Source: Rhizophagus irregularis
Taxonomy: Eukaryota; Glomeromycota; Glomeromycetes; Glomerales; Glomeraceae
NCBI RefSeq assembly: GCF_026210795.1
Contig: NC_089453.1
Location: forward strand, 2,854,501 to 2,918,500
Direction: 5' to 3'
DNA: 64,000 bases
The notes below the pieces were generated by a model. The model did no database searches. It was given only the letters and a program-made list of their open reading frames with translations, and was not told the DNA's origin. A program made the translations under genes and the position numbers. Of this stretch, positions 32,888-63,300 are shown piece by piece. Position 1 is the stretch's first letter; each line of letters begins with the position of its first letter.

Positions 32888-33353
32888 GGGTCTGGTACGA
32901 AATCCTGACACACAAAATCCCGACATACATAATCCCGACTACCAAAATCCTGAAATAAGAAAATCCCGACTAGTACAAATTTCCGACAGTTACAAAATCC
33001 CGAAATTTACAAAATCCTGAAATTTAATAATCTGGCCTCATGTTACTTTCTTAATCTGTATATATTATGTTCATAAAAGACTACTAATACATTTGATAAT
33101 TATTAAAGTGAAACAATCAGCCACATATTTAAAGTACAAAGAATAAATATTGCTATATTAGTATTAGAAGTTGTTTCTTTGTATAAGTTATATTGCTATA
33201 TTAGTATTAGAAGTTGTTTCTTTGTATGTATAAGCTAAAAATATATTGATAATAAATATTCTGCGCATCTTTGATATTACAAATGTTTACTCATCCTTAG
33301 TCACGGAAACTTATTTCTCTATTCCATATATTGGTTACAAAAACTTATTAAAA

Positions 33354-40438: not shown

Positions 40439-42993
40439 TTATACTGTATGTCCAAGGATTTTCCCTACTAACGTATATTGAAATGGATCTTTCTCTTTAT
40501 CTAAAATACCGTTCTAGATAAACGATTGGCTCATCAGAAATCAAAAAGTTTCATTTTTATATTTCCTTTTTTTTAAAAATAATGAAAACAAAGAAATAAC
40601 TTACCATGTACTGTCGCTTAATGTTCTTCCACTTAATGCAACATTGTTCCCATGAATAACTATGTTTTTCGGCGAGCATCAACTCAGAGGCACCATTCCA
40701 GAGTTCTAATTTTACACCACTATGAGGGTCACCCAATTTTTCGATTTTATCAATATTATCTTCTAAATATAATAATAAACATTCGACCGCTTCGTCACTC
40801 CAAAAGCATCGTGTGTTTTTTCCCGAAGATAATTTTCGTGATTTTTTTAGTGGACTTTCACTCGAAAAGGACATTTGTCTTGGGCTTTCGCACACAAATG
40901 TTGGACTTTCACTCGAAAAGGACATTTGTCTTGGGCTTTCGCACACAAATGTTGGACTTTCACTCGAAAAGGACATTTGTCTTGGGCTTTCGCACACAAA
41001 TGTTGGACTATCACTCGAAAAGGACGTTTGCATTGGGCTTTCGCACACAAGTGTTGGACTTTCACTCGAAAAGGTCATTTGTCTTGGGCTTTCGCACACA
41101 AGTGTTGAACTGCTCCAAGATAGCTTTCGTGCTACATATTCAGAAGATTCGGTTAATCCTAATGAAAAAAGGAAAATCATTATCATTACTCAATTTTAAT
41201 AGCTCAATTGTACGATTATCGACTCTCGTTATATTATGTTGACAGCTTAATTATCTACGAATTCAGATCTCCTATTCTCTGTACTAGTTATTTCACCCTT
41301 TAACTTATTTTGGTTGAATAAGGAAATGAACGGTCAATATAAAGTTTATAATACCTTGATTGGGATTATCAACATTATAATCTAAATAACTCGCTTCTTG
41401 CGGAAGGACATCGACCGATAATCCTATTACAAAAAAAGAGATTAATATGATTTCAGGCAGCATAAATATTAAATATCTTAATTTGTGTAGGATAAACTTT
41501 TTGATAATGCAATAAAAGTAAAAAAAAGGTAATAATGAAAACCTTTTTGATTGACCGTCGTCTGTGACATTGAAAGTATATCGTTCGAATCTAATATTTT
41601 ATTTTAAGAGATTACAGTGTTAATAAAATCGGCAATATTAACAATATTCCTTTATTAAAGCGGCAATAAAAAAGCCGAAAGATACGTGAGAAACGGAAAT
41701 CTCTAAATAAGGCTAACCTTTTTTATCTTGATGAGCATCATCGTAAGTATAACGTACTTTTTGTGACAAATATCGATGAAAAAGGTTAATACCAGAAATA
41801 TGAAGGAACATATCGACAGTGCAATTAATCGCGAATTAGTATTATCATTGTAATTCTGGTGATTTTTAATCGTTGGTAAAAAATTATTACCATTAGAGAC
41901 ATCGTCTAATTGAGATTGTGGTAGTGGATTTACCATTAATTATAATTGAAAAATGATGATTTATTAGTATACAATAGACAATCGGAAATTTAAGCAGTTT
42001 GAGCAATCTATAACATCGTAAGAATTATCAATTACTAAATCAAATTAAATTTAATATGTAATTGGCAATTTTAATCAATGATGGTATTTTTTGCTTTTTT
42101 GAAAACTGCAACAATATTACTTTTGAAAAAAAAATTCATTGTTATAATAACCTTGATAATAATCTTCTTGTCCAAGTTCTAGTAGTGGATCAGTGATTAT
42201 CAGATTTAATTAAAAAAAAAAATTTTTATTTAGTACCGATTGATAACAGAGATTTAAGTGATTTAAGTAATTTATAACATCGATATTAAAAAATTATCAA
42301 TTACAGAAATAATTTTAAGTTTGATTATGGTAACTGATAATTTTAAACAATGATAATATTGTTTCGCTTTTTTGAAATCTGCAATAATATTAAGGTGGAA
42401 AAAAATAATAACCTTGATAGTCTCCTTGCTCAAGTTCGAGGAGTGGGTCTATTACTATTATAATTAAAAAAATAACGATTTTTACTTATAATTTAAAGCA
42501 ATACAGCAACGGCGTAAAATTGTCAATACAAAATGAAGTTCGCTTTATTTATTGTAATTAGTAATTTCATGGGGTACAATTTTTGAAATGATATTAGGGT
42601 CGAGAAAAATTTTTTTTACCTTGGCTGTGACAATACTCATTTAGAGTAGGATGATCTGGATGATCAAATTCAAGTTGGGAAAGTGAGTGTATTGCTATTA
42701 TTATAAAAAAAAAAAGATTTTATTTAGCATTTACTCAAATGTAGACGTGTGTTTGATTTAAGTAATTTAAAATAATCGATTATACTCGATGTAAAACAAC
42801 CTTGATTATGATGAGAATAATCCAATAAAGATTGAAATTGTAAGTGGGCGTTTAATTCTAAAAAATTAATGACTGATATTTAGCATTCGTGGTTTTATTA
42901 ATATTTCTTAAATATTTTGAAGATGAAAATACCTTGATTAAAATCATTAGTATAATTATTCGAAGAGAAAATTGTTTCAATTGTTTCATCCAT
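40439..42993 (-). CDS. Gene A: Ser-rich Myb/SANT-like protein from micro-exons
   Basis: Predicted exons (minus): 42993-42933, 42857-42801, 42694-42620, 42454-42413, 41423-41355, 41158-40605, 40513-40439. All joins are GT-AG; the internal ones are phase 1 and the last is phase 0. This gives 310 codons with no stop. Start MDETIETIFSSNNYTNDFNQ; then ELNAHLQFQSLLDYSHHNQ, AIHSLSQLEFDHPDHPTL, VIDPLLELEQGDYQ and LSVDVLPQEASYLDY. The long exon has five 17-residue repeats (TFVCESPRQMSFSSESP) and a Myb/SANT-like DNA-binding domain: FWSDEAVECLLLYLEDN, GVKLELWNGASELM, CCIKWKNIKRQYM. Tail NGILDKEKDPFQYTLVGKIL. Two further unit exons (about 42195-42152 and 41932-41891) have lost their acceptors. Probably a nuclear DNA-binding protein (inference). 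Confidence 0.7.
40855..41110 (-). repeat. Five coding 51-bp tandem repeats in gene A
   Basis: A 51-bp unit (minus strand, 17 codons: TFVCESPRQMSFSSESP with T[LF]V, M[ST]F and S[ED] variants) repeats five times in the long exon. Central copies are almost identical at DNA level, implying recent slippage or conversion. Copy C has about four units ending SSESS, copy D only one remnant (QMCESPIQISFSSP). The Ser-Pro dipeptides are potential kinase sites (inference). Confidence 0.9.
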
Positions 42994-44586
42994 TGCGCTA
43001 TATAAAATTGAGTAAGAAAACTTTTGTTTCCCTTTTATTATTCGCTATACGAGAATGAATTTGGTTGTTTAAATATTGCATGTTTAATTTTTTGAGCGAA
43101 TATTTATATAGCAGATCTTTCGTTAATCCAATACAGATGAACACAACTGTTTGTTGCCATCACATTTGATAAAAGGCGTTATACAATCATTATGATATTT
43201 CTCACGAAAAAAAAAATTAATTGGATATTGGTAAAATTTGGATTAAAAGTGGGACAATCTAAAACCAATTCAGTCATATATATTACAAAAATAGAAATTG
43301 AACGTCTTTTAAAAACAATATAAGTATTAAATAATCAATAATGATTATGAAACTTGTTTACATCTTTCAATCTAAGAATCCCTGTACTATTATTATCAAC
43401 GATTATCATAAAAAATATAAAAAATACGTGCAACGTGTAAAAAATTAGAGTTTTGCCGATCATTTTGTACCTTACTTAAATCCAGTCAACTTACCTTATT
43501 TAACTAAGTGTTAATTAATCTCGTAAGTATCACCTGCAATTCAAATCACAAAATAATGTGTTAAAGAATTTACCTCAATATTAATTTTTCTACTATATAT
43601 TGACTTACTTGTCAATTGCCAATTGGATACTTCAGCTACTTATTATTATCCTAACGATTGTGCACTGAGCTGAAAACACTATTATTTCGTGTTTCTTTTG
43701 CGGATGAAAATGGAAGTATGTAGTGCTCCGCAAAAGTCGAGTTTATCGGGACTTCTACATTTGCTTGATGCGGACGAAGCCATACCAAAAAATGTGGACA
43801 CCTTCTGTCCGTGATCACATTATTTTGCGGAATATGATCCGAGTCGAGTCGACTCTTGCGAAGCACTACATGTCTTTTCATCCGTGATTATTAAATATTA
43901 TGTGATTCAAATTATAAGTGATACTTGCGAGATTAATTAGCACTTAGATAAAACAGGTAAGTTGATTGGATTTAAGTATGGTACAAAAAAAGATCAGCAA
44001 AACTCTAATTTTTTTTACATGTTGCACGTATTTTTTAATGAAACTATCAAACGATAGTAATATAAACCATGATATATAACGATATTAATATAAACCACGT
44101 AGATCTATGGTGTTTGCAATGGAATATTGGAGTAATTTCAACCTCGAAAATATATTCAATCATTAAAATTACGGGAATTTCCGCGGTTTTTTTTTATCTA
44201 GGAATCTTTGTGCTACATTCTGTCTAAACAGAGTGTAAACAGATTTCATAATCAATATAAAATTATTAATGCTTATATTGTTTTATAAAGACGCATAATT
44301 TCTATATATGACTATATATAACGCAAATTTGGATTAAAAGTGGGACAATCTGCCCCATCAAAAATCAATTCAGAATCAAATAAATAAATTTATCAAGATC
44401 AAAGATCAATTAATTTTTTTTTCATTAGAATATACGTAATGATTTATACGTAAATGATTTTTTAACGCCTCTTATCATATGATGCCAAACAAGTAAGTTG
44501 TGTTTATCTGGATTAATGAAAGATCTGCATTGATCAATGATTGGTTATTGCTCAACAAAGTTTCTTACTCAATTTTATATAGCGCA
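42994..44586. promoter_or_regulatory. Head-to-head spacer between genes A and B
   Basis: 1.6 kb between divergent starts. A TATA-like box (ATTTTATATAGCGCA) lies directly before ATG in both A (about 42994-43008) and B (about 44572-44586) and is conserved in C, with a weaker form in D. Inverted flanks meet around 43.7 kb: TGCAACGTGTAAAAAATTAG at 43433 against its inverse near 44010. The word AATTTGGATTAAAAGTGGGA occurs in the same orientation at about 43236 and 44325, so not all of the spacer is mirrored. The centre 43570-43890 has no ORF worth keeping. Confidence 0.5.
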
Positions 44587-46715
44587 ATGGATGAAACAAT
44601 TAAAGCAATTTTCCCTCATAATACTCATTAATTTTTTATTATTAAACGCTCAACCTACCTTTCAATCCGTATCGGATTACTCACATCATAATCAAGGTTG
44701 TTTTACGTCGAGTATAATCGATTATTTTAAGTTTGAATATGAGTGAATGCTAAATAAAAAACATTTTCAAAAAATTGAGAAATATTATCATCGCGTGAGA
44801 TTACCAATTACATTAAAGTAACAAATTTCACTTTATATTGATAATTTTACACCGTAAAATTGCTGAATCGCGATTGAAATTTCATTAAAATTGTTTTTTT
44901 TTTAATATAATAGTCACCGATCCACTACTAGATCTTGGACAACTGGAGATTATCAAGGTTATTAATTACTTTTTTTCAGCTTTAATATTGTTGCAGTTTT
45001 TAAAAAGCTGAAACAATGCTGTTGTTATTCAAAATTATCAATTACAAACTTGAATTCATTTCAGTAATTGATAATTTTTTAATACGCCATAAATTGCTTG
45101 AATCGCTTAAATCTCGACTTTCAATCGGTACTAAATAAAACTTGTTGTTTTTTAACTATAATAGTCGGTTCATTATTAGAACTTAGACAAGGAGGTTATC
45201 AATGTTATTATAACAATGAATTTTTTTCAACATTTACAGTTTCCAAAAAGCAAAAGATATTATCATCGAATAAAATCACCAATTGCAAACTAAATTTGAT
45301 TTAATTTTGTAATTGATAATTCTTACGATGTTTTAAATTGCTTTAAACTGTTAAATCTCCGATTGTATATTGGATACTAAATAAAATCGATATTTTTCAA
45401 TTATAATTATTAGTAACCCACAACCACAATTCCTGCTTCCAAAGGTTATTATATGAATGATTTTTTATCAGCGAGTAATTACAGAATTACAATAATACGG
45501 CGATGCTCATTAAGGTTATAAAAAAGTTAACCTTATTTAGAGATTCCGGTTTTCACGTATCTTTTAACAATTATCGGCTTTTTATTGCCGTTTTAATATA
45601 GTGATAGGAAATTAATATTGCCGACTTTACTAATGTTGTGATCTCTTAAAATTATAATTATATTCGATCTCCACAACAGTGATAATGCTGAACAAGGTTA
45701 TATACATAATAGTTTATACTTAATTTTCTTATAAATAAGATTGATAAGTATTAATCGTCGTGCTTATTTAATTATATTAGAAAACTTCCTTATCCCCTTA
45801 ATATCACAAACAATGATCTATTAAAAAGGTTTCATTATTATTTTTTTTTATTGCCATCTTCAAAAAGTTTAAACAAATTAATATGTTGAATAATAGGATT
45901 TGTTAATGTCCTTTCGTCCTTCGCAAGAAACGAATTATTTTGATTATAATGTTCGCCAAGGTTATTATACAATTGTTTAAACTCAGTATTGATCTTTTAT
46001 TGCCGTATTCAGTCCAAAGGTTAAGGTAAAATAATATCAGAAATAGAGATCCGAATTCGTAGTTAATAAAGTATAACGAGCCGAGAGCCGATGATCATCC
46101 AATTGAGTAATAATGATTTTCTTTTTTTCATTAGGATTAACTGATGAACGTATGCAAGAGCTCAAGGCAAATCCCTATAAAAATTCTTTTTGGAAAATTG
46201 TTCACATGTCCGAGTTTTTTTTGGAATAAAAACTAGAAAAATGATCATTTATCGGAAGAATATTTTTACAGGCCCAAACGAATGTCATGGGGTGAAAGTG
46301 GTAAATCACGAAATTTAACTTCGGAAAACGATGCTCTTGGAATGACGAAGCGGACAGATGTCTATTATTGTTCGGAGCGTAGCGAGACGGAAGGACATTC
46401 TATTGTTATGCACTAGACGATTTGATAGTTAACCCATGTAATTCCACCAACTACGTCATCCTATTAACCCCTGCATTTCCTTTATTGATTATATACCTCC
46501 TTTTGTAGTGTTAACAGTTGAGCTATTTTTCGTAATCAAATTTTTTTTTGTTTAGGTTGTAATAAAAAGATGTAAAAATAGAACTCTGGAATGGTGCCTC
46601 TAAGTGGATGTTCACCAATGGAGTTATTCAAAGGAACAGTGTTTTAATAAATGGAAACAAAAAGCAACATTATACAATAGGTTATTTCTTTGTGTTTTTT
46701 TTTAAAAAAAAAATA
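44587..46715 (+). pseudogene. Gene B: decayed copy of the Myb/SANT-like gene
   Basis: ATG at 44587 opens MDETIKAIFPHNTH, followed by a stop; exon 2 follows without a usable intron. The DHPDHPTL exon is deleted. Later unit exons are recognisable (ACCGATCCACTACTAGATCT after ATAATAG at about 44910; an equivalent near 45165; TAACCCACAACCACAATTCC at about 45414; CGCAAGAAACGAATTATTTT at about 45922), several out of frame. The long exon is nearly gone: GGATTAACTGATGAACGTAT at 46134, two MITE-disturbed stretches, and a fragment reading ELWNGASKWMFTNG at about 46582-46625. The last exon has an early stop. Clearly non-functional. Confidence 0.75.
46173..46274. mobile_element. About 100-bp CCCTATAAAA MITE in pseudogene B
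   Basis: Starts CCCTATAAAAATTC (46173), ends TTTTTACAGG (about 46272). The interior TAGAAAAATGATCATTTATC shows it is the same family, in opposite orientation, as the MITE at 62141-62237. The right TIR is degenerate. Confidence 0.7.
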
Positions 46716-46820
46716 AATAAAACTTTTTTGTTTCTGATGAGCCAATCGTTTTTTTAGAAAGGGCATTTTAAATGAAGAGAAAGATATATTTCAGTAGAAA
46801 GAATCCTGGACATATATAAT

Positions 46821-47003
46821 CCCTATAAAATATTTTATCCGTTATTTCTGTAAAAACTCCGTAAAATGAGCCTTTCACGGATCCATTCACGGAAATGTAA
46901 ATAATTCGATAAATTCCGCGATATAAGGTTATTAATTCCGGGAATATGAGCCTTTTACGGAAAAAGATGGAATATGAAAAACGGATTGACTTTTTTTATA
47001 GGG
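46821..47003. mobile_element. 183-bp CCCTATAAAA MITE, TSD AAT
   Basis: CCCTATAAAATATTTTATCC (46821) and TTTTTTTATAGGG (ending 47003), flanked by AAT (46818-46820 and 47004-47006). The interior contains GTAAAATGAGCC and its inverse-like partner GAGCCTTTTACGG; the Tnp2 element ends carry CCGTAAAATG and GGAAAAATGAGCCCATCCG, so this may be its deletion derivative. It splits the last exon of pseudogene B. Confidence 0.85.
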
Positions 47004-47883
47004 AATATGTCTTTAAATGATCCTAATAAGCGAAAAATGACTGAAGAAACAAGACCAACTGAATAGAAAAGGAGTTGAAAATTATTCATGAAAATGAGTC
47101 AAGAACGTAGGAAAGGGAAGGGAAGAGAAATATGATTTATTAATTCAAACTTGCCAATATTTTCAGTAGGTGTAGTCTAATTGAACGAAAAAGAAGTCAA
47201 TATTCTCTATTTCATTATTCATGTTTACTGTATCACGGGTCATGTTACCCGGAGGTATACTACTTGAGTGGATATTATAGTGCGCATAGGGGGAATACTA
47301 TGGCATGGGATATACGGAAATCGTCGAAAAAAAAGTTTGATATTTAATTTTTTAATAAAAAAAGTCTCCTTATGTAAAAGGAAGATATATTTATATCAAT
47401 TTTCTTTCTTATGAAAGAACGTATTTGATTGTATTATTACTAAAAAAAATAATATAGTCCCTACGGAACATGTACTCCGGAAATGGCAATAAAATAATCA
47501 ATACAAAAATAATTTTGCACACATTTTACCGCTTTGTTACAATCAAACAATAAACATTGTGATGTAACCAAATTAGGCAAATTTTCTTTCAAAATAAAGG
47601 AAATAATGAAGTAAAATCAAATTACGCCAAGATTTCTGATGAACTACTATAAATAAATCTCTCATTGATTTTGTACGATACATTCACCGTATTTATGATT
47701 CAATAATATGTAATTTTCGCACGGATCAAGCTGATTTTGTTTGCTGATCACCGTACAATTTAGTTTTCACCCCTACTTCCAATGATTTTGGCTAGTGAGC
47801 TAGTGAGCCGGGTCCGATTGATCAACATCTGGAACTTTTGATTTGTAATCATTTGGGGCTCATGTCTTCTGCCGTCATTATAT

Positions 47884-48108
47884 CCTGTAAAAAATGTTTG
47901 TCCGATAAATATTCGGAATGGTTCAATTTTCCGGACATTCGCACGCTATTATACAATATTTGTTACAATTTAACACAATATGCGGAGATTGAGAATTTTT
48001 AACCACATAAAAAACGTACAATATCATGATGAATGTACAATAAATGTCAAGTAAATGTTCGATTTTCCAAACAAGAAACCGAACAGTGTTTGGACAATTT
48101 TTTATAGG
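47884..48108. mobile_element. Degenerate CCCTATAAAA-type MITE
   Basis: Left TCCTGTAAAAAATGTTTGTC resembles the inverse of the right end (CCCTATAAAAAATTGTCCAA) ending near 48108. Interior words TCCGATAAATATTCGG and CCGAACAGTG. TSD not clear. Confidence 0.5.
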
Positions 48109-48380
48109 GATGGAATCCAAGCTAATTTCACGTCGGATCAAATGGGAACCTGGGGCGAAAATTAGTATAGCCACAATATCAATCATCAATAGTTAGTTTA
48201 TTTTGACAATAGTGATACAATAAATACAATGAATGAACATCTATGTGACTGAAATATTAATTTTAATTTACTCGTAAAATTTCGCTATTTATCAAATCCA
48301 GTATTTATAGTAATTTGTTAAAATGTACTAAATGAAGGAACGAAAACAAATTTTAATAATATTTTTAACATTTAACAAAT

Positions 48381-48631
48381 CCCTATAAAAAAGGAATGTT
48401 TAGAATATATACGTAAAATATACAATATACATAAAATGTCTATAGAATGTCCATAAAATATATAAAAAATATACAAAATGGGCTCACTGTATATAAAATG
48501 TACAAAAAAGTATATGAGTCCCCTTTGCATATATCCTATGTATTCTATGGACATTCTATAGACATTTTATGTATAATGTACATTTTATGTTTATTTTATG
48601 TATGTTTTCTGAACATTCCTTTTTTATAGGG
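48381..48631. mobile_element. 251-bp palindromic CCCTATAAAA MITE, TSD AAT
   Basis: CCCTATAAAAAAGGAATGTT (48381) is mirrored by AACATTCCTTTTTTATAGGG (ending 48631). AAT flanks at 48378-48380 and 48632-48634. Inner TAAAATGTCTATAGAATGTC is mirrored by GACATTCTATAGACATTTTA, so most of the element is one long inverted repeat. ORFs inside on both strands are by-products of the palindrome. Confidence 0.88.
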
Positions 48632-49130
48632 AATCCTTTATTCTTTTTTTGCATTATAATTGTTATCAATATCAAATGTATTAGTGTCTAATTCCTCTAT
48701 ATATAAAATTTTGTTTTTTTATTAACATAATGACAAAAATTTGGTTTATTGCATTAGTGTTACGATCCGCGGATGGCGGATACTAATTGATCCGGATATC
48801 CGACGGATGATCCGCAGAAATCCGAGGATTATAATACCGACGGATATCTGCGCTCACATGAATCTGAACTTTCTACAATCTACATTTTTATTTCGAGCTG
48901 CTAATTTCATTGATCTTTTGAAAAACCGAATTTTGAAGCCCTTGTATGAGTGTTTTACGTCCAGTATGGTTTGTAATTTTTTGGTTAGCCAGTGCAATCA
49001 ATACCACTCATTTTGCATATTTTATATTTTCATTTCAATCGGGTTTGTATATTAATAATATAAATTAATTGATTAGTAATAAATAAATAGATAATTTAAT
49101 GAAATAAATAATAGCGTTAAATTTACCATC
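48632..49130. other. Intergenic with a GATCC-rich patch
   Basis: At about 48763-48860 a patch of repeated GATCCG/CGGAT words (GATCCGCGGATGGCGGATAC) looks like the subterminal part of a MITE; no partner end is seen. The ORF 48741-49055 runs through it and is not supported. Confidence 0.4.
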
Positions 49131-50060
49131 TCGTTTGCATTCTTGGAGATAAAATGGTTCAGCTACTTAAGGACGATAAGACAAATATTTTTCATAAATT
49201 TCAATTATATCTGGATTATTTGGTAAAATAAGTAGCCTTCCCATGATTTCCGATTTCTACCGCTGATTCTATATATATGTAATATATCAAAACCTCCATT
49301 CTTCACGTTTTTTAAAATTCTCAGCCATTAAATAAAAATGTTCTCCCACGTAAACCTAATACAGTATATTGCGTTATAAAAAAAAAACTATTTTGAACTT
49401 CTTCGTTAGACAATCATTGGAACCATTTTTTTCTCCTTGATTTCCCTGAATAAACCTGCTAGAATTGCTTAAATATTTTGTTTTCAATTTATATGACTGA
49501 ATTTTGATTTAAATAACGATAAATTGCTGAAACAGTTGCTTTAATTGAAGAAATTGCATTTTTCTGTTTCATGACTGCTAAATATCGTGCTTAATTCCAA
49601 CACTTTTATTTCAAATATCTCCTCCAGTTTTCCCCATAATTATTTTTAGCACAAAATATTTCTACAGCACGTATCCAATTATTGATAGAATATTTTGTAT
49701 TCTTTAATTTTTCCAGTTACACAAAAGAAGTTTACATTTTTTCAAATTGTCACTTGAAACTTTTTTTCAATAGTCAAAATTATTATGAATAATATTAATT
49801 CGTGATCCAGATGCATGTCTATCAGTAAAAATTCGTAAATAATAAGAATCTGCCGCCGTCGTCACAAAGACAAGTCATTTTTTAATTTTCATTGGAAGGG
49901 AAATTAATAATGCATTCGAAAGTTGTGGTTTTTCTGCTATAAAATACTGCGTAATATTTTCATTTTGTTGCACTGGATGCAGTGATACCTTACCCACAAA
50001 AATGCCAATTAAATAAATTTCATTAATGATCAAAATTTCGCCCCGTTTTTTGATAGTGTA
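49131..50060 (-). pseudogene. Possible decayed gene fragment, unrecognised
   Basis: Minus-strand frames give protein-like stretches: QYFIAEKPQLSNALLISL (about 49950-49900), LVFVTTAADSYYLRIFTD and ASGSRINIIHNNFDY (about 49875-49790), separated by stops. No motif can be named; a transposon remnant is likely. Low confidence. Confidence 0.25.
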
Positions 50061-51179
50061 ATGCCGTAACTTACCTAGTAAATTTATTAATTGTGGGGCG
50101 CAGTATTATATTAATATTAGTATATAAATTTTTTATAGTTTAAAATTGTATTTTAATTGGTCCGCAATGACATTAAACTATGATGAACCAAAATTAGGAA
50201 AGGATTAACGTCCGAGATGACGTTAAACTAATGAATTAATATATCAGGTGATTAATTTGTAGATCATGACATTAAATTAAAGGATAAGTTAATTGGTTCT
50301 ACAATTAAGGAGATAGTTGAGCAATGATAACATTGTTAATTTTGAGGTGTAAGATGAAACAGCACTTTTTAGCAATGTGTCCACCAAATATTTGGTTTTA
50401 CACCGCTTTTTAGCAGTGTGTTTAGTAAATATTTAGATTTGAGGCAACGCTCAATATAAAGAGGTGTAGGATTAATCGTGTACAATTTAAATATAAATAG
50501 ATGGTGATTTTGGACTTTAAAATCAGGTTACGAATTTTAGAGAATAATTTTTAAAATGTGTAGGTCTAGTAATACATTGCCTTAATTGAGCGTGGCTACG
50601 AAGTTTATGATTCCTAAACTATATATATATATCATATATTGATATTATATTTTAGCATATTTCTCTAATTTTATATTTGCATATTTTTTACATATAGAAT
50701 ATGATATTCCATTAATTAATTTTCACCATATAACAAAGATATTGCAAAATACGCTAGTTGAGCAATTTATTGATATGAGAGTGATTGATCAATGTATAGA
50801 TTCTTAAAATCATGTGAAAATAGTTTTATGATCCTAATGATAATTATATAGATTCAAATGGTGAAAGTAATTAGTAATTGCACGAATCAATAAATAGTAC
50901 AAATTTCAAACAAATTTCAAAAATCCATATTAAAATAATTGTACAATTTCCATTTAATAAATGTTAGAATTTAATAACTTTATAAAAAATCTACAATAAT
51001 CATACATTTAAGTTTACGAAATAAAATTTAAATATCAGAATATTAATAATGTTATGAAAAGCCTACAATAATCATATGATTAAATTTTATAAAAAAATGC
51101 GAATTTATTCAATTATACAAATACTAAACAAAAACTAGATGATTATTACAAAAATAAAACAAAAACTGCACGATTTTTA
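50061..51179. other. Intergenic, AT-rich
   Basis: Small repeats only: TGACATTAAACT or TGACGTTAAACT words at about 50167, 50219 and 50266, and a near-duplicated stretch with CTTTTTAGCARTGTGT at 50355 and 50407. No gene or RNA is seen. Confidence 0.4.
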
Positions 51180-52640: not shown

Positions 52641-53280
52641 CTATCTTTTTTATCAATAATAATATAAAAAAATGTTGTGAAACATTTTTATATTAAAATA
52701 CTTTAACACTTAAAATTTTTATATATTATTATTGATAAAAAACGTTGCGAAACGTTTTTTTCTAAGTATAAACGTTTTTTTTAAAGTGTTTCAATATAAA
52801 AAAACGTTTCGCAACATTTTCTTATATTATTATTGATAAAAAACGTTGCGAAACGTTTTTTTTCTAAGTATAAACGTTTTTTTTAAGTGTTTTAATATAA
52901 AGAAATATATTTTTATATTATTATTAATAAAAAATGTTGCAAAACGTTTTTTTAAGTGTTTTAATATAAAAAAACATCCTGCAACATTTTCTTACATTAT
53001 TATTAATAAAAAACGTTGCGAAACGTCTTTTTCTAAGTGCTTTAATATAAAAAAAATGTTTTGTAACATTTTTTATATTATTATTGATAAAAAACGTTGC
53101 GAAACGTTTTTTTCTAAGTGCTTTAATATAAAAAAAATGTTTTGTAACATTTTTTTTATATTATTATTGATAAAAAACGTTGCAAAACGTTTTTTTCTAA
53201 GTGTTTTAATATATAAAAAACATTTTGCAAATATTTTTTATATCATTATTGATGAAAAGCGTTGTACAAAATATTGCTTG
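52641..53280 (+). repeat. Palindromic minisatellite, AACGTTGCGAAACGTT core
   Basis: Six to seven units of about 80-105 bp. Each has AAAAAACGTTGCGAAACGTT (an inverted repeat), TAAGTGTTTTAATATAAAA, and a second inverted repeat (AAAATGTTTTGTAACATTTT), joined by TATTATTATTGAT. Every unit can form two hairpins. The open frame across the array (52846-53298) merely repeats the unit (FKCFNIKK). Confidence 0.85.
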
Positions 53281-53513
53281 AGTTATCCTATAAACTAATA
53301 ATTAGAAACTAATAATTTATATCTTATTGGCTTCATTTTTGCTTAGATGAATCTAATGGTGATATAAGAATGATGATATCACAAAAATTGAATCCTCATT
53401 GGCTAAGACGAGCAATGTGATATATCACGTGACCAATAATATGTAACGACTCGTGTAGAAATTCAATGATCATCCAGGGTAATGTTTGCATCCAGGGTAA
53501 ATTTTCAAAATCC
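53281..53513. other. Intergenic
   Basis: No gene. GATGAATCTAATGGTGATAT at 53346 and CATCCAGGGTAATGTTTGCA at about 53471 hint at fragments of the module and of the following palindrome cluster. Confidence 0.35.
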
Positions 53514-53833
53514 TATAATGCGCCATACTGTTCAAAAATCCCGGGTGATCACCCTGGATGCATCCAGGGTCATCCTGGATTTTTGAACAGTACGGCGTTT
53601 AATAATCCAGGGTAAATCCTGGATACATCCCGGGTGGCTACCCGGGATTTTTGAACAGTATGGCGCATTATAGCATCCAGGGGGACCACCCGGGATGTAT
53701 CCATGGTCATCCTGGATTTTTGAACAGTACGGCGTTTGATAATCCAGGGTAAATCCTGGATTGATCCCGGGTAGCTACCCTGGATGCATCCAGGGTGGCC
53801 ACCCAGGATTTTTGAACAGTATGGCGCATTATA
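53514..53833. mobile_element. Nested GC-rich palindrome cluster (foldback element)
   Basis: Outer ends TATAATGCGCCATACTGTTC (53514) and GAACAGTATGGCGCATTATA (ending 53833) are exact inverses. Inside, GATTTTTGAACAGTAYGGCG recurs three more times, and CATCCAGGGT, CCCGGGTGATCACCC, CCCGGGTGGCTACCCGGG and CATCCAGGGTGGCCACCC make further palindromes. A basic palindrome of about 75 bp appears duplicated at about 150-bp period. GC content is far above the surroundings. No ORF. Confidence 0.8.
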
Positions 53834-53919
53834 ATATTCTGTGGTGGGTACTGGAACAAAAAAAATACTGGCTAGTTTCTAAATAAAGTTGACTTCGTTA
53901 AAAAAAAAAAAAAAAAAAA

Positions 53920-55930
53920 ATCTTATTCACCAATTATTAATACCAAAAACCTACCAAAAAAATGCGTGTTCCCTGTTCATAATTTATTTATCTTAAAACG
54001 AGAGCATAAAACATCAACATGTATATGATCAAAGCTAAACACCCTTTTAATCACGTTACATCACCACCAGCGGCAGATTCATCAGATATAACAATTTCTG
54101 CGACTCATTTATCACCTAACATTATCAATTGCATCATAGGCAACGAAACATTCTATTGAGTTATTGGATACCCTCGCACGCGCATTTTCGTGTGAACAAA
54201 ACATCACCTTTTACACTGACGGAGCTTCACGACCAGCATACTTACCATCTGACCAGACTCTGACTACTACTAACATGGGCTTCGGATGGGTCAAAGTAAG
54301 CAATAAATCTCCACTATACACTTTTCATGGCAATACCACCTTCACGTCATCATCCACCAAAGAAGAATGATTCGCTATGATACTCACGTCTTTATTAACA
54401 TGCCCACCAAAATTCACCATCAATATTTATACAGACTCGCAGAATTGTATCAACACTTTTCATCTTGTTAACGACGCATTAACATCGGACAGAAAAATCC
54501 TAATGATCAACAATCACCACGCATAGCACATTATCAAATTCTTGATCAATAACATGACTTTGAATATCACACTACACAAAGTTAGAGCTCATTCTAACAT
54601 TTATTATAATGATCTAGCAGATGTCAAAGCAAAAAAAGGTCTTGACATACTTCCAATGTATATTAACCTGAAATTCGTCCCGGATGCCACAATGTCTCCC
54701 TTTTGGGATTCCATTGGCACCATTGATAGAGATATCAGAAAATTCAGTATAATAGTTACAGATGCACATACTTTTGATTCTTTCATCAACAACTCCAAAT
54801 TATGATACTTTTTCACACCACAATTTAAATGAAATCAATTGGTCCATCACGCAAGTTTGGCTCAAATATAATGAAACTACGGACGTATGCAGTTCAGAGA
54901 AATCCAACAAGATGAATTCAAACTGAAATGCCTGAAATAACATATTACCTTGCGGCGATAAATTAAAATCACATTATCCTTCACGGTATACTGATATTCA
55001 GAAGCCCATCAAATGCCCAATTTGCAAAATGGAAGACGACACAAATTCACACTTAGGTTTCCGTTCTTCCAGAACTTAATCACATCATCAAAGATTTTAA
55101 AGCCAGCCTACATACTAAAATCTCTTTGCATGCCGATCAACGCATAACAACATATTTGCTCAATCAAGATCTGAACAATTCTCCTCTTTTCCATCCTATA
55201 CGGACAAATCACACCCAGTTTATCTATTACTTCACAACTTCATTCCGCAACTACTTGTGGATCTAATCAATCAATACACCAACCGATTTAACGTAACGAA
55301 AAAGCTAACAATAGAATTTATGTTGCAGCTACACACAGAAGCTATGAAACAATGGGACATAACGGAAGGTATCACTACTACGAAAAAGATACACCACAAG
55401 AAAAAATGTCACCAACGGATTAAAAACTGATCAAAACCTAATCTTACATTCACAAGCTCTCCTTTACCATTAAGGAATATTAACAAACATTACGATGAAA
55501 ATCATCAATTCGACGACAGACTACGTATCAACTATTATCAATGCCAGAAGACGGACGACCACTTCATTCCATTTTGGATCATCCTCATCACATCGAATTA
55601 TCTGCATGCGGATGGTTAGAATAATCTTTTATCAAATTGTTAGATAGACAACAATTTTATAGAGAATATTTACTATTTTTTTCTTATTTTTCTTTATTTT
55701 CATCTCATTATAATTTAGGTTTTTTTATCACTTCTTTTAATTTTTATTTTTATGATGTTAGCAGGATACTTGGATGCCTAGGGCTCATGGTTGAATATTA
55801 GGCAGGACAACTTCTTTATAGGGGGGTTGAAATTACTCATGTATGTTGTTTAGTCTTGTATTTGTAATACCTGCTACGGCAGTTGTTTGTTCTTTCCGTA
55901 GATAATAAAAATAAAAATAAAATAAAAATT
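53920..55930 (+). pseudogene. LINE B: 5'-truncated LINE with RNase H remnant
   Basis: The preserved part starts after an A21 run (about 53899-53919). RNase H catalytic segments are FYTDGASRPAYL (about 54212), SSSTKEE followed by a stop (54368-54370), NIYTDSQNCINTF (about 54424) and [12 protein letters not shown] (about 54592). Next is a finger-like CPICKMEDDTNSHLGF (about 55017) and a decayed C-terminus. The 3' end is AATAAAAATAAAAATAAAAT at about 55904, as in LINE A. Same family as LINE A, older or more damaged. Confidence 0.75.
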
Positions 55931-56257
55931 TATTTTTATACTTAGTTCTATTTTCTTTTATAAAATATTTATCTTATAATATGGTTAATTTGGTCCACCA
56001 TGACCCTAAACTGGAGGACAGATAAGTATGGTTATAGTGGATAGGATCTTTATTTAGTTAAAGACGCTAGAATTATTATAAATAGAGCACTATGAATTAG
56101 GATTTGGGCACAGTTTTATAATATTAATAAAGTTTATATTTTGCCACAGCAAATAATACCTCTGCGATGGTCTGGTTGGTAAAGAGATATACCTTTATGG
56201 TTATTTCTTGCAGGTAATGCTGCGAGGCCATCTGGAAGTAGTTCTGCTTTAGACGTC
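55931..56257. other. Intergenic
   Basis: No supported gene. A GC-richer patch (56155-56260, with GCGATGGTCTGGTTGGTAAA) resembles a tRNA D-arm only superficially. TATAAATAGAGC at about 56078 could be a TATA box, but nothing downstream confirms it. Confidence 0.35.
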
Positions 56258-56501
56258 CCCCCTAATTTGGCTACATCACAAATGTTTAAAATAATAAATA
56301 CAAAAATAATTTTGCACACACTTATTATATATTGTCATTTCCGGAGTACATGTTCCGTAAGGTCTATATCTTTTTTTTGCCAATAATACAATGGAGTACG
56401 TTATTCTTTCAAAGGAAAAAAAATTGTTATAAGTATATCCTTTTTACATAGTAGGATTTTTTATATTAAAAAATTAAATTTTTTTTACAATTACCGTATA
56501 T

Positions 56502-56593
56502 CACGGGCCATAGTACTCCCCCATGTATAGTATAGTATCTAACCATGTAAATATACCCCGGGTATAAACAAGATTGGGATAATATGGCCCGTG
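56502..56593. mobile_element. 92-bp MITE, CACGGGCCATAGTAC ends
   Basis: CACGGGCCATAGTACTCCC (56502) is mirrored by GGGATAATATGGCCCGTG (ending 56593); the interior has TAGTATAGTATCTAACCATG and CCCCGGG. The orthologous insertion lies downstream of gene A at 40140-40227. Confidence 0.75.
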
Positions 56594-56695
56594 AAATACT
56601 GATATAAAATTTTGACTTTTGTTTTCGTTCAACTAGACTACGACTACTGAAAATATTTTGGCATTAATAAACTATATTTCTCTTCTCTTTTCTTT

Positions 56696-59120
56696 CTACG
56701 TTCTTGCCTCATTTTCGTGAATAATATTCAACTCCTCTTTATTTAAAATGCCATTCTAAAAAAATGTTTGGCTCATCAGAAATCAAAAAAGTTTCTTCCT
56801 TTTTAAAGAAGAAATCAAAGAAATAAATTACCATGTAACGTTGCTTATTGTTTCTCCATCTATTGTAACACTGTTCCGGTGAAAGATCATGGCCATTAAC
56901 GAGCATCCACTTAGAGGCACCATTCCAGAGTTCTACTTTTACACCACTATGAGGGTCACTCAATTTTTCGATTTTATTAATATTTTCTTTTAAATATAAT
57001 AATAAACATTTGACCGCTTCGTCTTTCCAAGTGCATCGTTTTGTGTTTTTCCCTGAAGATAATTTTCGTGATTTACTTCCACTCCATGCACTCAATGACA
57101 TTCGTTTTAGACGTTTGTACATAGATGTACTTTTACCCGAAAAAGATATTTGTCTTGGACTTTCACTCATTTGTCTTGGGCTTTCGCACACAAGTGTTGG
57201 ACTTTCACTCGAAAAGGACATTTGCCTTGAGCTTTCGCACACAAGTGTTGAACTTTCACTCGAAAAGGTCATTTGTCTTGGGCTTTCGCACACAAGTGTT
57301 GAACTTTCACTTGAAAAGGTCATTTGTCTTGGGCTTTCGCACACAAGTGTTGAACTGTTCCAAGATAGCTTTCGTGCTACACCTTCGCCAGAAGATTCGG
57401 TTAATTCTAATGAAAAAAGGAAAATCATTATCATTACTCAATTTTAATAGAATAATTGTACGATTATCGACTCTCGTTATATCATATTGACAGCTTAATT
57501 GTCTACGAATTCAAATCTATTCTCTGTCGTTATTTTACCTTTAACTTATTTGGGTTGTATAAGGAAATGAAAGATCAATTTAAGGTTAATAATACCTTGA
57601 TTGGGATTATCAACATTATAATCTAAATAACTCGTTTCTTTCGGAAGGACATCGACCGATAATCCTATTACAAAAAAAGAGATTAATATGATTTCAGGCA
57701 GCATAAATATTAATATCTTAATATGTGTAGGATAAACTTTTTGATAATGGCAATAAAAGTAAAAAAAAGGTAATAATGAAAACCTTTTTGATTGACCGCC
57801 GTCTGTGACATTGAAAGGATATCGTTCGAATCTAATATTTTATTTTAAGAGATTACAGCGTTAATAAAATCGACAATATTAACAATGTTCCTCTATTTAA
57901 ACGGCAATATAAAAGCCGAAAAGATACGTGAGAAATGTAATCTAAATAAAGCTAGCCTTTTTTTATTGATAAGCATCACCGTAAGTATAATGTATTTTTG
58001 TGAAAAATGTTGATGAATAAAGTTTAATAACCTACATCGCGAATTTGTATTATTGTAATTCTGACGATTTTTAATCGTTAATAAAAAAATCATTACCATA
58101 GTAACCTTTGGAAGCATCATCTGATTGAGATTGTGGTAGTAGGTTTACTATTAATTATAATTGAAAAAAAAATAACGAGTTTATTTAGTAACCAATAGAT
58201 AATCGGAAATTTAAGCAGTTTAAGCAATTATAATATCATAACTACTAAATTAATCTGTAATTGGCGATTTTAATCAATGATAATATTTTTGCTTTTTTGA
58301 AAACTGCAATAATATTAATTTTAAAAAAAAATTCATTGTTATAAATTACCTTGATAATCTTCTTGTCCAAGTTCTAGTAGTGGATCAGTGATTATTAGAT
58401 TTAATTAAAAAAGCAATTTTTATTTAGTACCGATTGATAACAGAGGTTTAAGCGGTTTAAGCAATTTATAACATATTAAAAAATTATCAATTACAGAAAT
58501 GAGTTCAAATTCAATAATATTAAGATTGAAGAAAAATAATTGTTATAATAACCCCGATAATCTTCTTGCCCAAGTTCTAGTAGTGGGTCGATGACTATTA
58601 TAATTAAAAAAAACGCGATTCAGTAATTTACGGCATAAAGTATCAGTACAAAATGAAGTTTGCTTCCTTTATTGTAATTGGTAATTTCGCGCGGTGTAAT
58701 TTTTGAAACGATATTGGGGTCGAGAAAAAATTTTTTTTATAATAACCTTGTTTGTGACGACAATCATTTAGAGTAGGATGATCCGGATGATCAAATTCAA
58801 GTTGAGAAAGTGAATGGATTACTATTATTATAAAAAAATAAAGATTTTATTTAGCATTTATTCAAATGTAGACGTGTGTTTGATTTAAGCAATTTAAAAT
58901 AATTGATTATACTCGATGTAAAACAACCTTGATTATGATGAGAATAATCCAATAAAGATAAAGATTGAAATTGTAAGTGGGCGTTTAATTCTAAAAAATT
59001 AATGAGTGTTATTTAGCATTCGTAGTTTTATTATTATTTCTTAAATATTTTGAAAATGAAAATACTTTGATTAGAATAATTAGTATAATTCTCATTCGAA
59101 AGGAAAATTATTTCATCCAT
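56696..59120 (-). CDS. Gene C: Ser-rich Myb/SANT-like protein from micro-exons
   Basis: The best-preserved copy. Predicted exons (minus): 59120-59066, 58990-58928, 58821-58747, 58594-58553, 58147-58106, 57664-57596, 57406-56832, 56755-56696; all GT-AG, phase 1 inside, phase 0 at the last join, 326 codons, no stop. Start MDEIIFLSNENYTNYSNQ; micro-exons give LNAHLQFQSLSLLDYSHHNQ (6 bp longer than A), SLSQLEFDHPDHPTLND, VIDPLLELGQEDYR, VNLLPQSQSDDASK and LSVDVLPKETSYLDYNVD. The long exon has SSTLVCESPRQMTFSSE repeats, then TWKDEAVKCLLLYLKEN, GVKVELWNGASKWML, QCYNRWRNNKQRYM. Between 58594 and 58147 lies one more unit exon with a good donor (58350) but no AG at the usual place; an internal AG (CTACTAG) could give an in-frame 24-nt exon. 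The tail is shortened by deletion (NGILNKEELNIIHENEART). Confidence 0.75.
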
Positions 59121-60575
59121 TGTCGTTATATAAAATTGAGTAAGAAGACTTTGTTGATCTTTTATTATTCGCTATACGAGAACAATTTTTGATTTTTCTG
59201 AATGAGTATTTATATCATTAATCAAAATGCAGATCCTCCAACTAAATAAACACATACTATGTACTGCACCATATTTGAAAAAGATCATTATTATATTATG
59301 ATAAAATAAGTTAGATGTATTTGACTGGATTATCCAGTAGTATTTGTTTCTATTTGATTCGCAAATTTTTGGACAATGTGTTCGATCAAAAACTATGTCG
59401 TACACAAATTCGCATAGATGTTAAATTATTATATTCTAATAAAAATAAGTTTGCCTGGATTATCCAATAGAATTTTTGTTTTCTATTTATTTGGACAATG
59501 TAACAGTGTCGTACAAAAAAAAGATTTTTAAAAAAAATTCGCATAGATGTTAAAATAAAAATAAGTTTGCCTGGATTATCCAATAAAATTTTTCTATTTA
59601 TTTGTAATTTGATGGACGATGTAATAGTGTCGTACAAAAAAAAGATTTTAAAAAAAAATTCGCATAGATGTTAAACAATCATTATAACATTTTAATCGAA
59701 ATAAGTTTGCCTGAATTATCCAATAGAATTTGTTTTCTATTTTATTTGTAATTTGATGGACAATGTAAACAGTGTACAAAAAAGATTTTAAAAAAATTCG
59801 CATAGATGTTAAACTATTATATTCTAATAAAAATAAGTTTGCCTGGATTATCCAATAGAATTTGTTTTCTATTTATTTGTAATTTGATGGACAATGTAAC
59901 AGTGTCGTACAAAAAAAAGATTTTAAAAAAAATTCGCATAGATGTTAAACAATCATTATTATATTCTAATAAAAATAAGTTTGCCTGGATTATCCAATAG
60001 AATTTGTTTTTATTTATTTGTAATTTGATGGATAATGTAAATAGTGTCGTACAAAAAAGATTTAAAAAAAAATTCTCAACTTTTCTACTACGCAGTTCCG
60101 AGATGAAAGAATATCATGTAATAAACCCGGTCAACTATAGTACCTATTTTATCAATTACAAATTCTGTCACTAAATGTTAAATGCAAAAATTTTTGTTTT
60201 AATCTAGGGACTCTTTCTTTGTGCGTCATACTGTTTAAACAGATTTCGTAATTATATTGTTTTAAAGACGGTCAGTTTCTAATTTTGTAATAATTTATTT
60301 TTGATTGAACACATTGTCCATCAAATTACAAATTTGCGAAGCAAATAGAAAACAAATTCTATTGGATAATCCAGTCAATTTATTTTACTTATTTTTATTA
60401 GAATATAATAATGATTGTTTAAATCTTTTTCAATACGTAATATGTTTATTTCTTGATCGGCTATATATAAACACTCGCTCAAAAAAATTAGTAAATATTT
60501 AAACAATCAAATTTGTTCTTGTATCATAGCAAATAATAAAGGTCAACAAAGTCTTCTTACTCAAAATTATTTACA
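59121..60575. promoter_or_regulatory. Head-to-head spacer between genes C and D
   Basis: A TATA-like ATTTTATATAACG lies directly upstream of the gene C ATG; gene D has the weaker AAAATTATTTACA. Upstream of both, GCGAATAATAAAAG (C) and GCAAATAATAAAGG (D) precede GTCAACAAAGTCTTCTTACT-like sequence. Most of the spacer is occupied by the tandem array described separately. Confidence 0.45.
59290..60070 (+). repeat. Tandem array of about 115-150-bp units between genes C and D
   Basis: Units contain TTCGCATAGATGTTAAA, AAAAATAAGTTTGCCTGGAT, TATCCAATAGAATTTGTTTT, TGTAATTTGATGGACAATGT and AGTGTCGTACAAAAAA. Copies begin near 59410, 59540, 59660, 59797 and 59935, with a diverged one at 59290-59400. A single inverted copy lies at about 60300-60420 on the D side. 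The array is absent from the A/B spacer, so it expanded after the two blocks separated. Confidence 0.85.
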
Positions 60576-61129
60576 ATGGATGAAACAATTGTCCCTTTAA
60601 GTAAGAATTATATTAATGTTCTAATCAAGATTTCATTTTCAAAATATTTACGAAATATTAATAAAACTATGAATGCTAAATAACAATTATTAATTTGAAC
60701 GCTCACTTACTGCATCGGATTATTCTCATCATAATCAAGGTTGTTTTACATCGAGTATAATCGATTAATTGAAATTGTTTAAATCAAAACACACGTCTAC
60801 ATTTGAGTAAATGCTAAATAAAGTCCTTTTTTTATAATAATAGCAATACACTCATTTTCTCAACTTGAATTTGATCATCCGGATCATCCTAATCTAAATG
60901 ATTGTTGTCACAACCAAGGTTATTATAAAAAAATTTTTTTCTTGACCCCAATATCGTTTCAGAAATTAAGAAATATTATCGAAATAACCAATTACAATAA
61001 AGGAAGCCAATTTCATTTTGTATTGATACTTTGCCGTAAATTGCTGAATCGCGTTTTTTTTTAATTATAATAGTCATCGATAGTCTTTTAGAATTTATAC
61101 AAGAAGGTTTGTTATTATATAACAATGAA

Positions 61130-61660
61130 TTTCTGTTTTCAACATTAATATTATCAGAGGCAAAGCAATACTATCATTGTTTAACATTACCAATTACAAT
61201 AAAGAAAGAAATTTCATTTTTGTATTGATAATTTTATGCCGTAAATTGCTGAATCGCGATTTAATAATCGCTATTTTAATTATAATAGATATCGATCCAC
61301 TGCCCGGACAGGAAAATCTAGGTTATTATAAAATTGTTTTTTCCAATTTTAATATTATTACAGTTTTCAAAAAAGGCGAAACAATACTATCATTGTTTAA
61401 AATTACCAATTACAATAAAGAAAGAAATTTTCATTTTGTATTGATAATTTTATGCCGTAAATTGCTGAATCGCGATTTAATAATCGCTGTTTTAATTATA
61501 ATAGATATCGATCCACTACGACAAGAAAGTAGCCAAGGTTATTATAAAATTATTTTTTTCCAATCTTAATATTATTACAGTTTTCAAAAAAGCGAAACAA
61601 TACTATCATTGTTTAAAACTACCAATTACAAATTCAATTTGCCTTAACTTTGTAATTGAT
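61130..61660 (+). repeat. Tandem intron-exon units in gene D, period about 215 bp
   Basis: The 33-nt exons start at 61074, 61289 and 61505 (spacing 215 and 216). The introns between them are nearly identical, with AATACTATCATTGTTTAAAA, TTACCAATTACAATAAAGAA, TTTTATGCCGTAAATTGCTG and AATCGCGATTTAATAATCGC, and acceptor TTATAATAG. This is a young duplication of complete intron-exon units. Confidence 0.9.
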
Positions 61661-62140
61661 AATTCGTTATTTTATTCAGATGATGTTTCCGTTCTAAATA
61701 ATATTGTTATTTTATTCAGATGATGTTTCCGAAAATTATTATGGTAATGATTTTTACTATCGAGTAAAAATTACAGAATTACAATAATACGAATTCGCGC
61801 TGTCAACTTAATCATGCAAATTGCGATATACTCGCTCATATTTCCGGTATTATCCCTTTATTCGTTGATATTTTTTACAAAAAATACGTTATACTTACGG
61901 CGATGCTCATCGTGGTCATAAAAAAGGATAGCCATATCCGTTTTCCGAGAGTTTTGTCGTATCTTTTAACGGTTATCGCATTATTTTCTAACTAATAAGA
62001 TTGACAAGTATTAATGTCGTTGCTTTAATAGAATTCTTCTCTATCCCTTCAATGTCACAAACGATCGACTATCGAGTTTATTATTATTATTATATTAATT
62101 TTTATTGCCATCTTCAAATTAAATATGGTTACTATACAAT

Positions 62141-62237
62141 CCCTATAAAAAAAATTCCGATAAATGATCATTTTTCTAGTTTTTATTCCGAAGAAACTTA
62201 GACACGTGATCATTTTTCTGAAAATTTTTTTATAGGG
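62141..62237. mobile_element. 97-bp CCCTATAAAA MITE, TSD AAT
   Basis: CCCTATAAAAAAAATTCCGA (62141) and TTTTTTTATAGGG (ending 62237), flanked by AAT at 62138-62140 and 62238-62240. The interior carries two ATGATCATTTTTCT copies. Located between exons of gene D; the same family hit gene B at 46173. Confidence 0.88.
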
Positions 62238-63300
62238 AATTGTTTGTATCGTTCTTTTATTGCCGCATTCAATCCAAAAAGTTAAAGGGTGAGAGAAATA
62301 ATACCAGAGAATAGAGATTCGGATTCGTAGTTAATTAAGCTTGTCATCATACTCGTACAATTGAGCCACTAATTGAGTAATAACGACAATGATTTTTTTT
62401 TTTCATTAGGATCATCTAGTAGTTGGAGCAGTTACGTCTATGATTCGAGTAGTAGTGATAGTCCAAATCAAATGTGTGAGAGCCCGATACAAATATCTTT
62501 TTCGAGTCCTGGAAGAACAAAACGATGCGAATGGAAAGAGGAAATGGATACATGTTTATTATTATATTTAGAACTAAACAAAGATACAATTAAAAAACTA
62601 CATAATCCTCATAGTGGCGTCAAATCAGAACTCTGGAATGGTGCATCTAAGTGGATGCTCGCCGGTGGCCATGATCTTTCACCGGAACAGTGTTCCATTA
62701 AATGGAAAAATATTAAGCAAAATTACACGGTAAGTTATTTCTTTTTTTTAAAAAAAAAGAGTTAAAAAAAAAGAGAAGTCTCTCATTAGCTAATCGTTTT
62801 ATTTAGTGCGGTAAATTAAATGAGACGAAAAATCCAGTTCAATATAACTTAGTAAAAAAAATTATTGAACGAAAAATGTAATATTCCAATTTGTCAATAT
62901 TTCAGTAATTATTATGTAGTTAAACGGAAAAGTTTAAGATTTTTAACTTTCTGTTTCATTATTGTATATATAATTAAAAAAAAAAATTAAAGGGACATAT
63001 TTATATCAAATTTTTTCTTCTTGAAAGAACAAAGAACAACGTATTCAATTGTATTATTGCCAAAAATAATAGACCCTACGGAACATGTACTTCGGAAATG
63101 GCAATAAAATAATCAACACATGCTTTACCGCTTTGCTACAGTTGAGCAATAAACATTGTGATATAGCCAAATTAGGCAACTTTTTCTTTATAAATAAAGG
63201 AAATAATGAAATAAAATCAAATTTATCGATATTATGCCAACTTTGCATTAGCAACATTTATCAATTATTATTTACCTAAACATCGAATTCTATTTTTTCT

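Follow-up and report, generated by a model that had tools for sequence, protein, structure and literature searches.

A clustered gene family of Rhizophagus irregularis with a predicted trihelix Myb/SANT-like domain and a putative micro-exon-encoded tail

Described micro-exon genes and the window family

In the micro-exon genes (MEGs) of schistosomes, very small symmetrical exons make up most of the coding region and splicing generates variant proteins (PMC4350168); these proteins have been reported in secretions, in glands and in exposed epithelia. In aphids, the bicycle genes, which encode putative secreted effectors, have many small internal exons starting at codon position 2, megacycle displays internal tandem duplication with shared intron positions, and genes with many similar-sized exons of the same phase are described as rare in most genomes (PMC9168663). 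Here, we analyzed a 64,000-nucleotide stretch of the genome of the fungus Rhizophagus irregularis (contig C25, positions 2854501-2918500, G+C 28%; below called the window). Four related copies, A to D, of a gene predicted to combine a chain of micro-exons with a Myb/SANT-like domain lie between 40.4 and 62.9 kb of the window. Searches of the whole genome covered 146,748,485 bases on 32 contigs.

The window family resembles the MEGs in its very small symmetric exons; its N-terminal part fits that pattern in 38/38 exons of the chosen models, a likeness in predicted layout alone. Unlike the MEG pattern, no exon of A, C or D is longer than the Myb exon, and the array is followed by a nuclear-type DNA-binding domain, in contrast to the places from which MEG proteins are reported. 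The exon phase equals that of the aphid bicycle genes, a comparison of layout and not of sequences, whereas the secreted nature proposed for bicycle proteins is unlike the window family. With the trihelix (GT factor) proteins, A, C and D share the PF13837 domain, at only 18% identity to GT-1 over 67 residues. Repeat proteins are also known from the same fungus: the paralogues of the R. irregularis SP7-like effectors are scattered over the chromosomes and carry a signal peptide, with one conserved intron preceding the repeats (PMC11333574), whereas the window family is clustered and has its units in separate predicted exons. On this intron layout, membership in the SP7-like group was rejected. 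The AGL cell-surface repeat proteins were likewise set aside, their single intron after the signal exon (PMC8786786) being a different layout. No description of the window family was found in the titles and abstracts of the open-licence PMC literature, subscription papers lying outside that scope, which agrees with a preliminary description of this DNA, made from its letters, that knew of none.

We read the copies as a local DNA-binding protein family with an acidic tail that would grow and shrink as exon units are duplicated frame-neutrally and splice sites are lost, and we put the probability of this sequence-based reading at about 0.58. In the predicted protein, the trihelix Myb/SANT domain is C-terminal and preceded by an acidic tail, rich in Ser, Thr, Asn and Gln, that a chain of phase 1-1 micro-exons encodes. 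Unequal crossing-over between homologous introns, or replication slippage between them, would make and remove units, and the tail may serve as a length-tunable acidic-hydrophobic region for activation or partner binding, tethered to DNA by the modelled GT-1-like domain, which would bind DNA. That the copies form a cassette-exon system, in which interchangeable frame-neutral units would give many regulatory-tail versions per gene, perhaps per strain or nucleus, through unit number in the DNA and splicing choice, we consider unlikely.

Gene models and the coding character of the micro-exons

The preliminary description had assigned a 5' half of micro-exons to all four copies. The four copies are indeed related and A, C and D are open; B is a pseudogene. 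The features of the cluster are as follows (window positions).

40439..42993, minus strand: copy A, conceptual open reading frame (ORF) of 340 aa in 10 predicted exons (42993-42933, 42857-42801, 42694-42620, 42454-42413, 42178-42152, 41905-41891, 41590-41543, 41423-41355, 41158-40605, 40513-40439)
42413..42454, minus strand: unit exon E4 of copy A (VIDPLLELEQGDYQ), acceptor ATAATAG, donor CAAG/GT
42152..42178, minus strand: unit exon E5 of copy A (ELGQEDYYQ), with an in-frame AG within the old exon, the original acceptor being lost
40605..40847, minus strand: predicted trihelix Myb/SANT-like domain of copy A (Pfam PF13837, E 6.5e-8; AlphaFold2, AF2; VIA-align)
40851..41111, minus strand: 51-bp (17 aa) tandem repeat in the Myb exon of copy A, 5.1 copies (Tandem Repeats Finder, TRF)
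about 44587-46800, plus strand: copy B, pseudogene with stops, a lost splice site and a missing exon
56696..59120, minus strand: copy C, conceptual ORF of 350 aa (exons 59120-59066, 58990-58928, 58821-58747, 58594-58553, 58373-58350, 58147-58106, 57831-57784, 57664-57596, 57406-56832, 56755-56696)
57167-57356: 51-bp in-exon tandem repeat of the copy C Myb exon, 3.7 copies (TRF)
60576..62881, plus strand: copy D, conceptual ORF of 205 aa (exons 60576-60600, 60844-60918, 61074-61106, 61289-61321, 61505-61537, 61720-61743, 62410-62729, 62807-62881)
61074..61700, plus strand: array of copy D, made of three intron-exon units at spacings of 215 and 216 bp; its exons are each 33 nt long and of phase 1-1

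Conceptual ORFs run open from start to stop in A, C, D and a paralogue, L002 (C25:1755500-1762300, 1.1 Mb from the window cluster), whose start, a Met within an E8-like exon, is a guess. The models of two further paralogues are open throughout; that of L003 was carried to an arbitrary point in the last exon and that of L004 as far as the domain exon reaches. Exon 7 of A (41756-41718) was kept out of the gene models on account of its weak-looking acceptor and its broken state in C and D. In copy B, most of intron 1, the E2 acceptor and E3 are missing, the first exon reaches a stop after 14 codons, and the Myb exon has stops and an insertion. By eye, a TATA-like run lies some 90-110 bases upstream of the first ATG in A, C and D, at 43101-43110 (minus), about 59204-59216 (minus) and about 60464-60471 (plus), respectively.

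All seven internal N-terminal exons of the predicted copy A model are multiples of three in phase 1-1. The same symmetry in all 38 such exons (A 7, C 7, D 5, L002 10, L003 7, L004 2; 15-339 nt) is by itself little proof because the search for candidates had partly imposed it. Any subset of the modelled internal exons preserves the frame of the Myb domain (128/128 for A, 128/128 for C and 32/32 for D). As the modelled N-terminal exons are symmetric, gain, loss or skipping would therefore keep the DNA-binding domain in frame, in line with what had been proposed.

The exon borders ATAATAG and CAAG/GT given in the preliminary description suit only part of the exons. Those of the E3 and E4 type have ATAATAG directly before them and CAAG/GT at most ends and are of phase 1-1 as claimed, whereas others use TTTTTTAG, AATATTAG, TTTGTAATAG or TTCATTAG, and several sites have been lost. 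The original E5 acceptor is gone in A and C, as is the E6 acceptor in A; where such an acceptor was lost, the next AG sits within the old exon, in frame. Copy D no longer has the original donors of exon 1 and E8 or the acceptor of E2; a GTAAGA is present earlier in exon 1 in the same phase as the lost donor, and the D model lacks E2, E8 and E9. We infer that these substitute splice sites are in use in A, C and D.

In a scan with strict splice signals, three open phase-1 micro-exons were detected in A, three in C, two in D and none in B, and 0 of 300 shuffles per copy reached the count of A, C or D. A control scan of that length class in the two remaining phases yielded 1 and 1 for A, the same for C, and 1 and 0 for D. 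A chance origin of the open micro-exons was thus rejected for A, C, D and also L003 (300 shuffles each), though not for B.

Copies A and C were compared over 123 aligned codons of seven N-terminal exons, which contain 14.5 synonymous and 21.5 nonsynonymous changes. Random placement of the same base changes yielded 8.1 synonymous changes on average (permutation P=0.005) and the shifted frames 8.2 and 10.7; by codon position, the differences number 9, 9 and 18. Synonymous divergence (dS) was 0.239 and nonsynonymous divergence (dN) 0.075, with P=0.001 for N against S. Indels in exons 1-9 were multiples of three in 10/10 events versus 10/28 events in introns (P=0.0005); without the 27-base gap in E6, which arises from different acceptors in the two models, the count was 9/9 (P=0.001). 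These patterns of substitution and indels support the view that the micro-exons of A and C evolve as coding sequence, and the micro-exon pattern looks real and unusual.

Copied units, the DNA-binding domain and paralogues

The preliminary description had reported three units at a period of 215-216 bp in copy D, and this spacing was recovered: TRF found a period of 216 with 2.2 copies and 92% matches, and the introns of the first and second units (u1 and u2) are identical at 156/175 positions. The introns had also been called homologous among the copies on the strength of three short strings. With 3 or fewer mismatches allowed, the intron string CAATAYTATCATTGTTTAAA occurs 8 times in the window versus 0.22 expected; six of these matches are in A, C and D, none in B and two at 11.4 kb, outside the copies. 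For TTAATTATAATAG with 1 mismatch, 10 matches contrast with 1.76 expected; one is outside the copies at 26.9 kb and two are on the opposite strand inside A and C. Both strings are thus above chance, but of the three strings quoted, two have exact matches in D alone.

The clearest case of unit copying is L002, with an array of nine exon-intron units of 153-418 bp that are 73-98% identical to one another. Identities of 0.96 for u1/u3 and for u2/u4 are what is expected if a pair of units was copied; u7/u8 reach 0.98. Array lengths are multiples of three in 9/9 exons versus 3/9 introns (P=0.009), although the nine units are not independent events because they are copies of each other. Acceptors and donors in L002 were picked by rule (T-rich TAG and [AC]AGGT), and every acceptor-donor pair free of phase-1 stops is a multiple of three. 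By eye, the introns keep GCTAATT in 9/9 cases, then a T-rich stretch ending in TAG. Judged by these alignments, exons and introns of a unit have been copied together in D and in L002, and the proposal that whole intron-exon units were duplicated holds for both. Myb exons have been duplicated as well, two in L002 and three on contig C29.

Two side observations concern these arrays. At L002:4272-4950, an in-frame 87-bp exonic repeat is present in two exons; a possible 5' splice site, always in the same phase, closes its copies and would offer nested donor choices. At L005:4652-5766 (C29), three Myb exons with their introns stand in tandem, 371-372 bp each and 86-98% identical.

The Myb/SANT-like assignment of the preliminary description was upheld. 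The conceptual proteins of A, C and D score 29.9, 27.3 and 30.8 bits against Pfam PF13837 (Myb_DNA-bind_4), all above the curated cut-off of 27. The AF2 model of the copy A domain, built from an alignment of 15 domain sequences of the same genome, has a mean predicted local distance difference test score (pLDDT) of 82 and helices at 18-30 (and 32-36), 45-59 and 66-80. VIA-align placed Arabidopsis GT-1 first and second, with Z 9.7 (2jmw) and 9.1 and root-mean-square deviations of 3.8 and 2.1 over 67 residues, and Drosophila Zeste third (Z 8.2), in a set of 109 chains pre-picked by Foldseek; middling Z scores are common for helical folds. Foldseek alone gave no match to this model at E<=0.001, and the single match of a PDB sequence search (E 0.94) was uninformative. 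The domain of A, C and D is a trihelix Myb/SANT-like domain by profile, and the predicted fold of the copy A domain is closest to that of GT-1. Diversification of the recognition helix between A and C was considered and rejected, helix 3 having changes at 8/15 positions versus 16/54 elsewhere (P=0.13, not significant). The tails of A, C and D gave no Pfam match above its cut-off. They are acidic and rich in S/T/N/Q, with repeats such as DPLLELxQxDYQ; in 6/6 modelled proteins the tail has a net charge of -6 to -57 versus +2 to +10 for the domain part.

In the genome, 21 sequences matched the domain query at E<=0.01, and 14 of these are located on C25. The N-terminal DNA of copy A, used as query, matched C25 only, apart from one 60-bp piece on C30, and the L002 and L003 queries matched C25 only; absence of arrays elsewhere is not proven by this because such searches can miss matches. 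Twelve loci were compared and L001-L004 were judged family members. L005-L011 hold the domain, and no unit exons were recognised in them by eye in the candidate scan, which does not prove their absence; L012 had short weak hits only. At L003:1151-1060 (minus), the intron ahead of the Myb exon has apparently been deleted and its TTTCTTCATTAG tail remains as in-frame codons. At L001:3000-4660, coding sequence that by eye resembles a protein kinase is found immediately upstream of a Myb exon on the same strand, where a fusion gene is possible. Myb_DNA-bind_4 matches occur on most contigs (150 scored of 246 candidates), many in ORFs of equal length (122, 126, 140 or 91 aa) and often with equal scores, as expected for a transposon-encoded Myb protein. 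Transposon coding sequence in the window itself is located at 17153-18151, 23306-24337, 27475-28242 and 33234-34604, with domains of the hAT dimerisation region, reverse transcriptase, Transposase_21, FLYWCH and MULE types.

Competing explanations and meaning

Several findings count against a tail maintained by frame-neutral unit changes, and they are given here with the explanations that they favor. Ordinary tandem exon duplication followed by decay, in a recently duplicated and partly dying cluster where unit changes have no use, is possible but doubtful. Copy B is dead, a number of ancestral splice sites are missing from D, neither C nor D retains an intact E7, and gaps of 2 and 13 bases in the last exon of C give it a C-terminal end that differs from that of A. 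There is also the transposon coding sequence elsewhere in the window. Furthermore, dN and dS are about equal in the Myb domain of A and C (0.189 and 0.170; 0.23 and 0.16 by another alignment), with dN above intron divergence (P=0.004), values that fit relaxed as well as diversifying selection. On the other hand, four members retain full ORFs and the models of another two are open throughout, the micro-exons of A and C have their synonymous excess, and dN/dS is 0.12-0.84 in 20/21 pairs of seven Myb domains, the exception being A-C.

An improbable alternative is that the units are intronic or otherwise non-coding tandem repeats, that the real gene consists of the Myb exon and a short leader, and that the open micro-exons are chance or relics. 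In D, unit introns are better conserved than unit exons: mismatches between u1 and u2 amount to 15/29 in the exons versus 19/175 in the introns (P=1.7e-6), with P=0.011 for u2-u3 and 0.053 for u1-u3, in a comparison of three short units. Likewise, dN is 0.233 when the ten exons of L002 are taken together, above the value of 0.125 for pooled intron mismatch; for u1-u5 only, dN is 0.058 and dS 0.152 against 0.096 for introns i1-i4, the pooled pair comparisons not being independent. Between A and C, dN of the N-terminal exons is not significantly below intron divergence (21/297 vs 111/1176, P=0.25) while synonymous change is above it (15/72, P=0.004), and the argument for constraint therefore rests on the synonymous excess. 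E3 alone has 4 synonymous and 6 nonsynonymous changes in A-C, and 2 and 5 in A-D and likewise in C-D. The strict scan also found phase 0 open for one micro-exon per copy in A, C and D, and phase 2 for one per copy in A and C; B is without any intact unit exon. Non-coding repeats would, however, account poorly for the synonymous excess (P=0.005) together with frame-preserving indels in A-C, for shuffles that never matched the counts of A, C or D, and for multiples of three in the exons of L002 but only 3/9 of its introns. The claim in the preliminary description that a mechanism diversifies the N-terminus is not established by these comparisons: the A-C synonymous excess points to constraint, and the greater divergence of the D unit exons comes from the three short units mentioned above.

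That the family is one of secreted SP7-type effectors, with the repeats and not DNA binding as the working part, can be dismissed as very improbable: repeat-bearing proteins do exist in this fungus, but the N-termini of A, C and D (MDETI..., MDEII...) are hydrophilic with no signal-peptide-like stretch as judged by eye only, and SP7-like proteins combine a signal peptide with a single conserved intron ahead of the repeats instead of placing each repeat in its own exon (PMC11333574).

The preferred reading, of a DNA-binding family with a tail that changes by frame-neutral units, makes a central claim that is testable with existing data, since RNA reads and several strain assemblies of R. irregularis are available (PMC10234402, PMC11333574). 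The units of L002, at 73-98% identity, would provide a clean setting in which to watch gain and loss of intron-exon units. In the papers compared, symmetric micro-exon genes have so far been described for secreted proteins of parasites and insects. If true, a fungal case built on a DNA-binding domain would mean that the same architecture tunes a transcription-factor-like protein.

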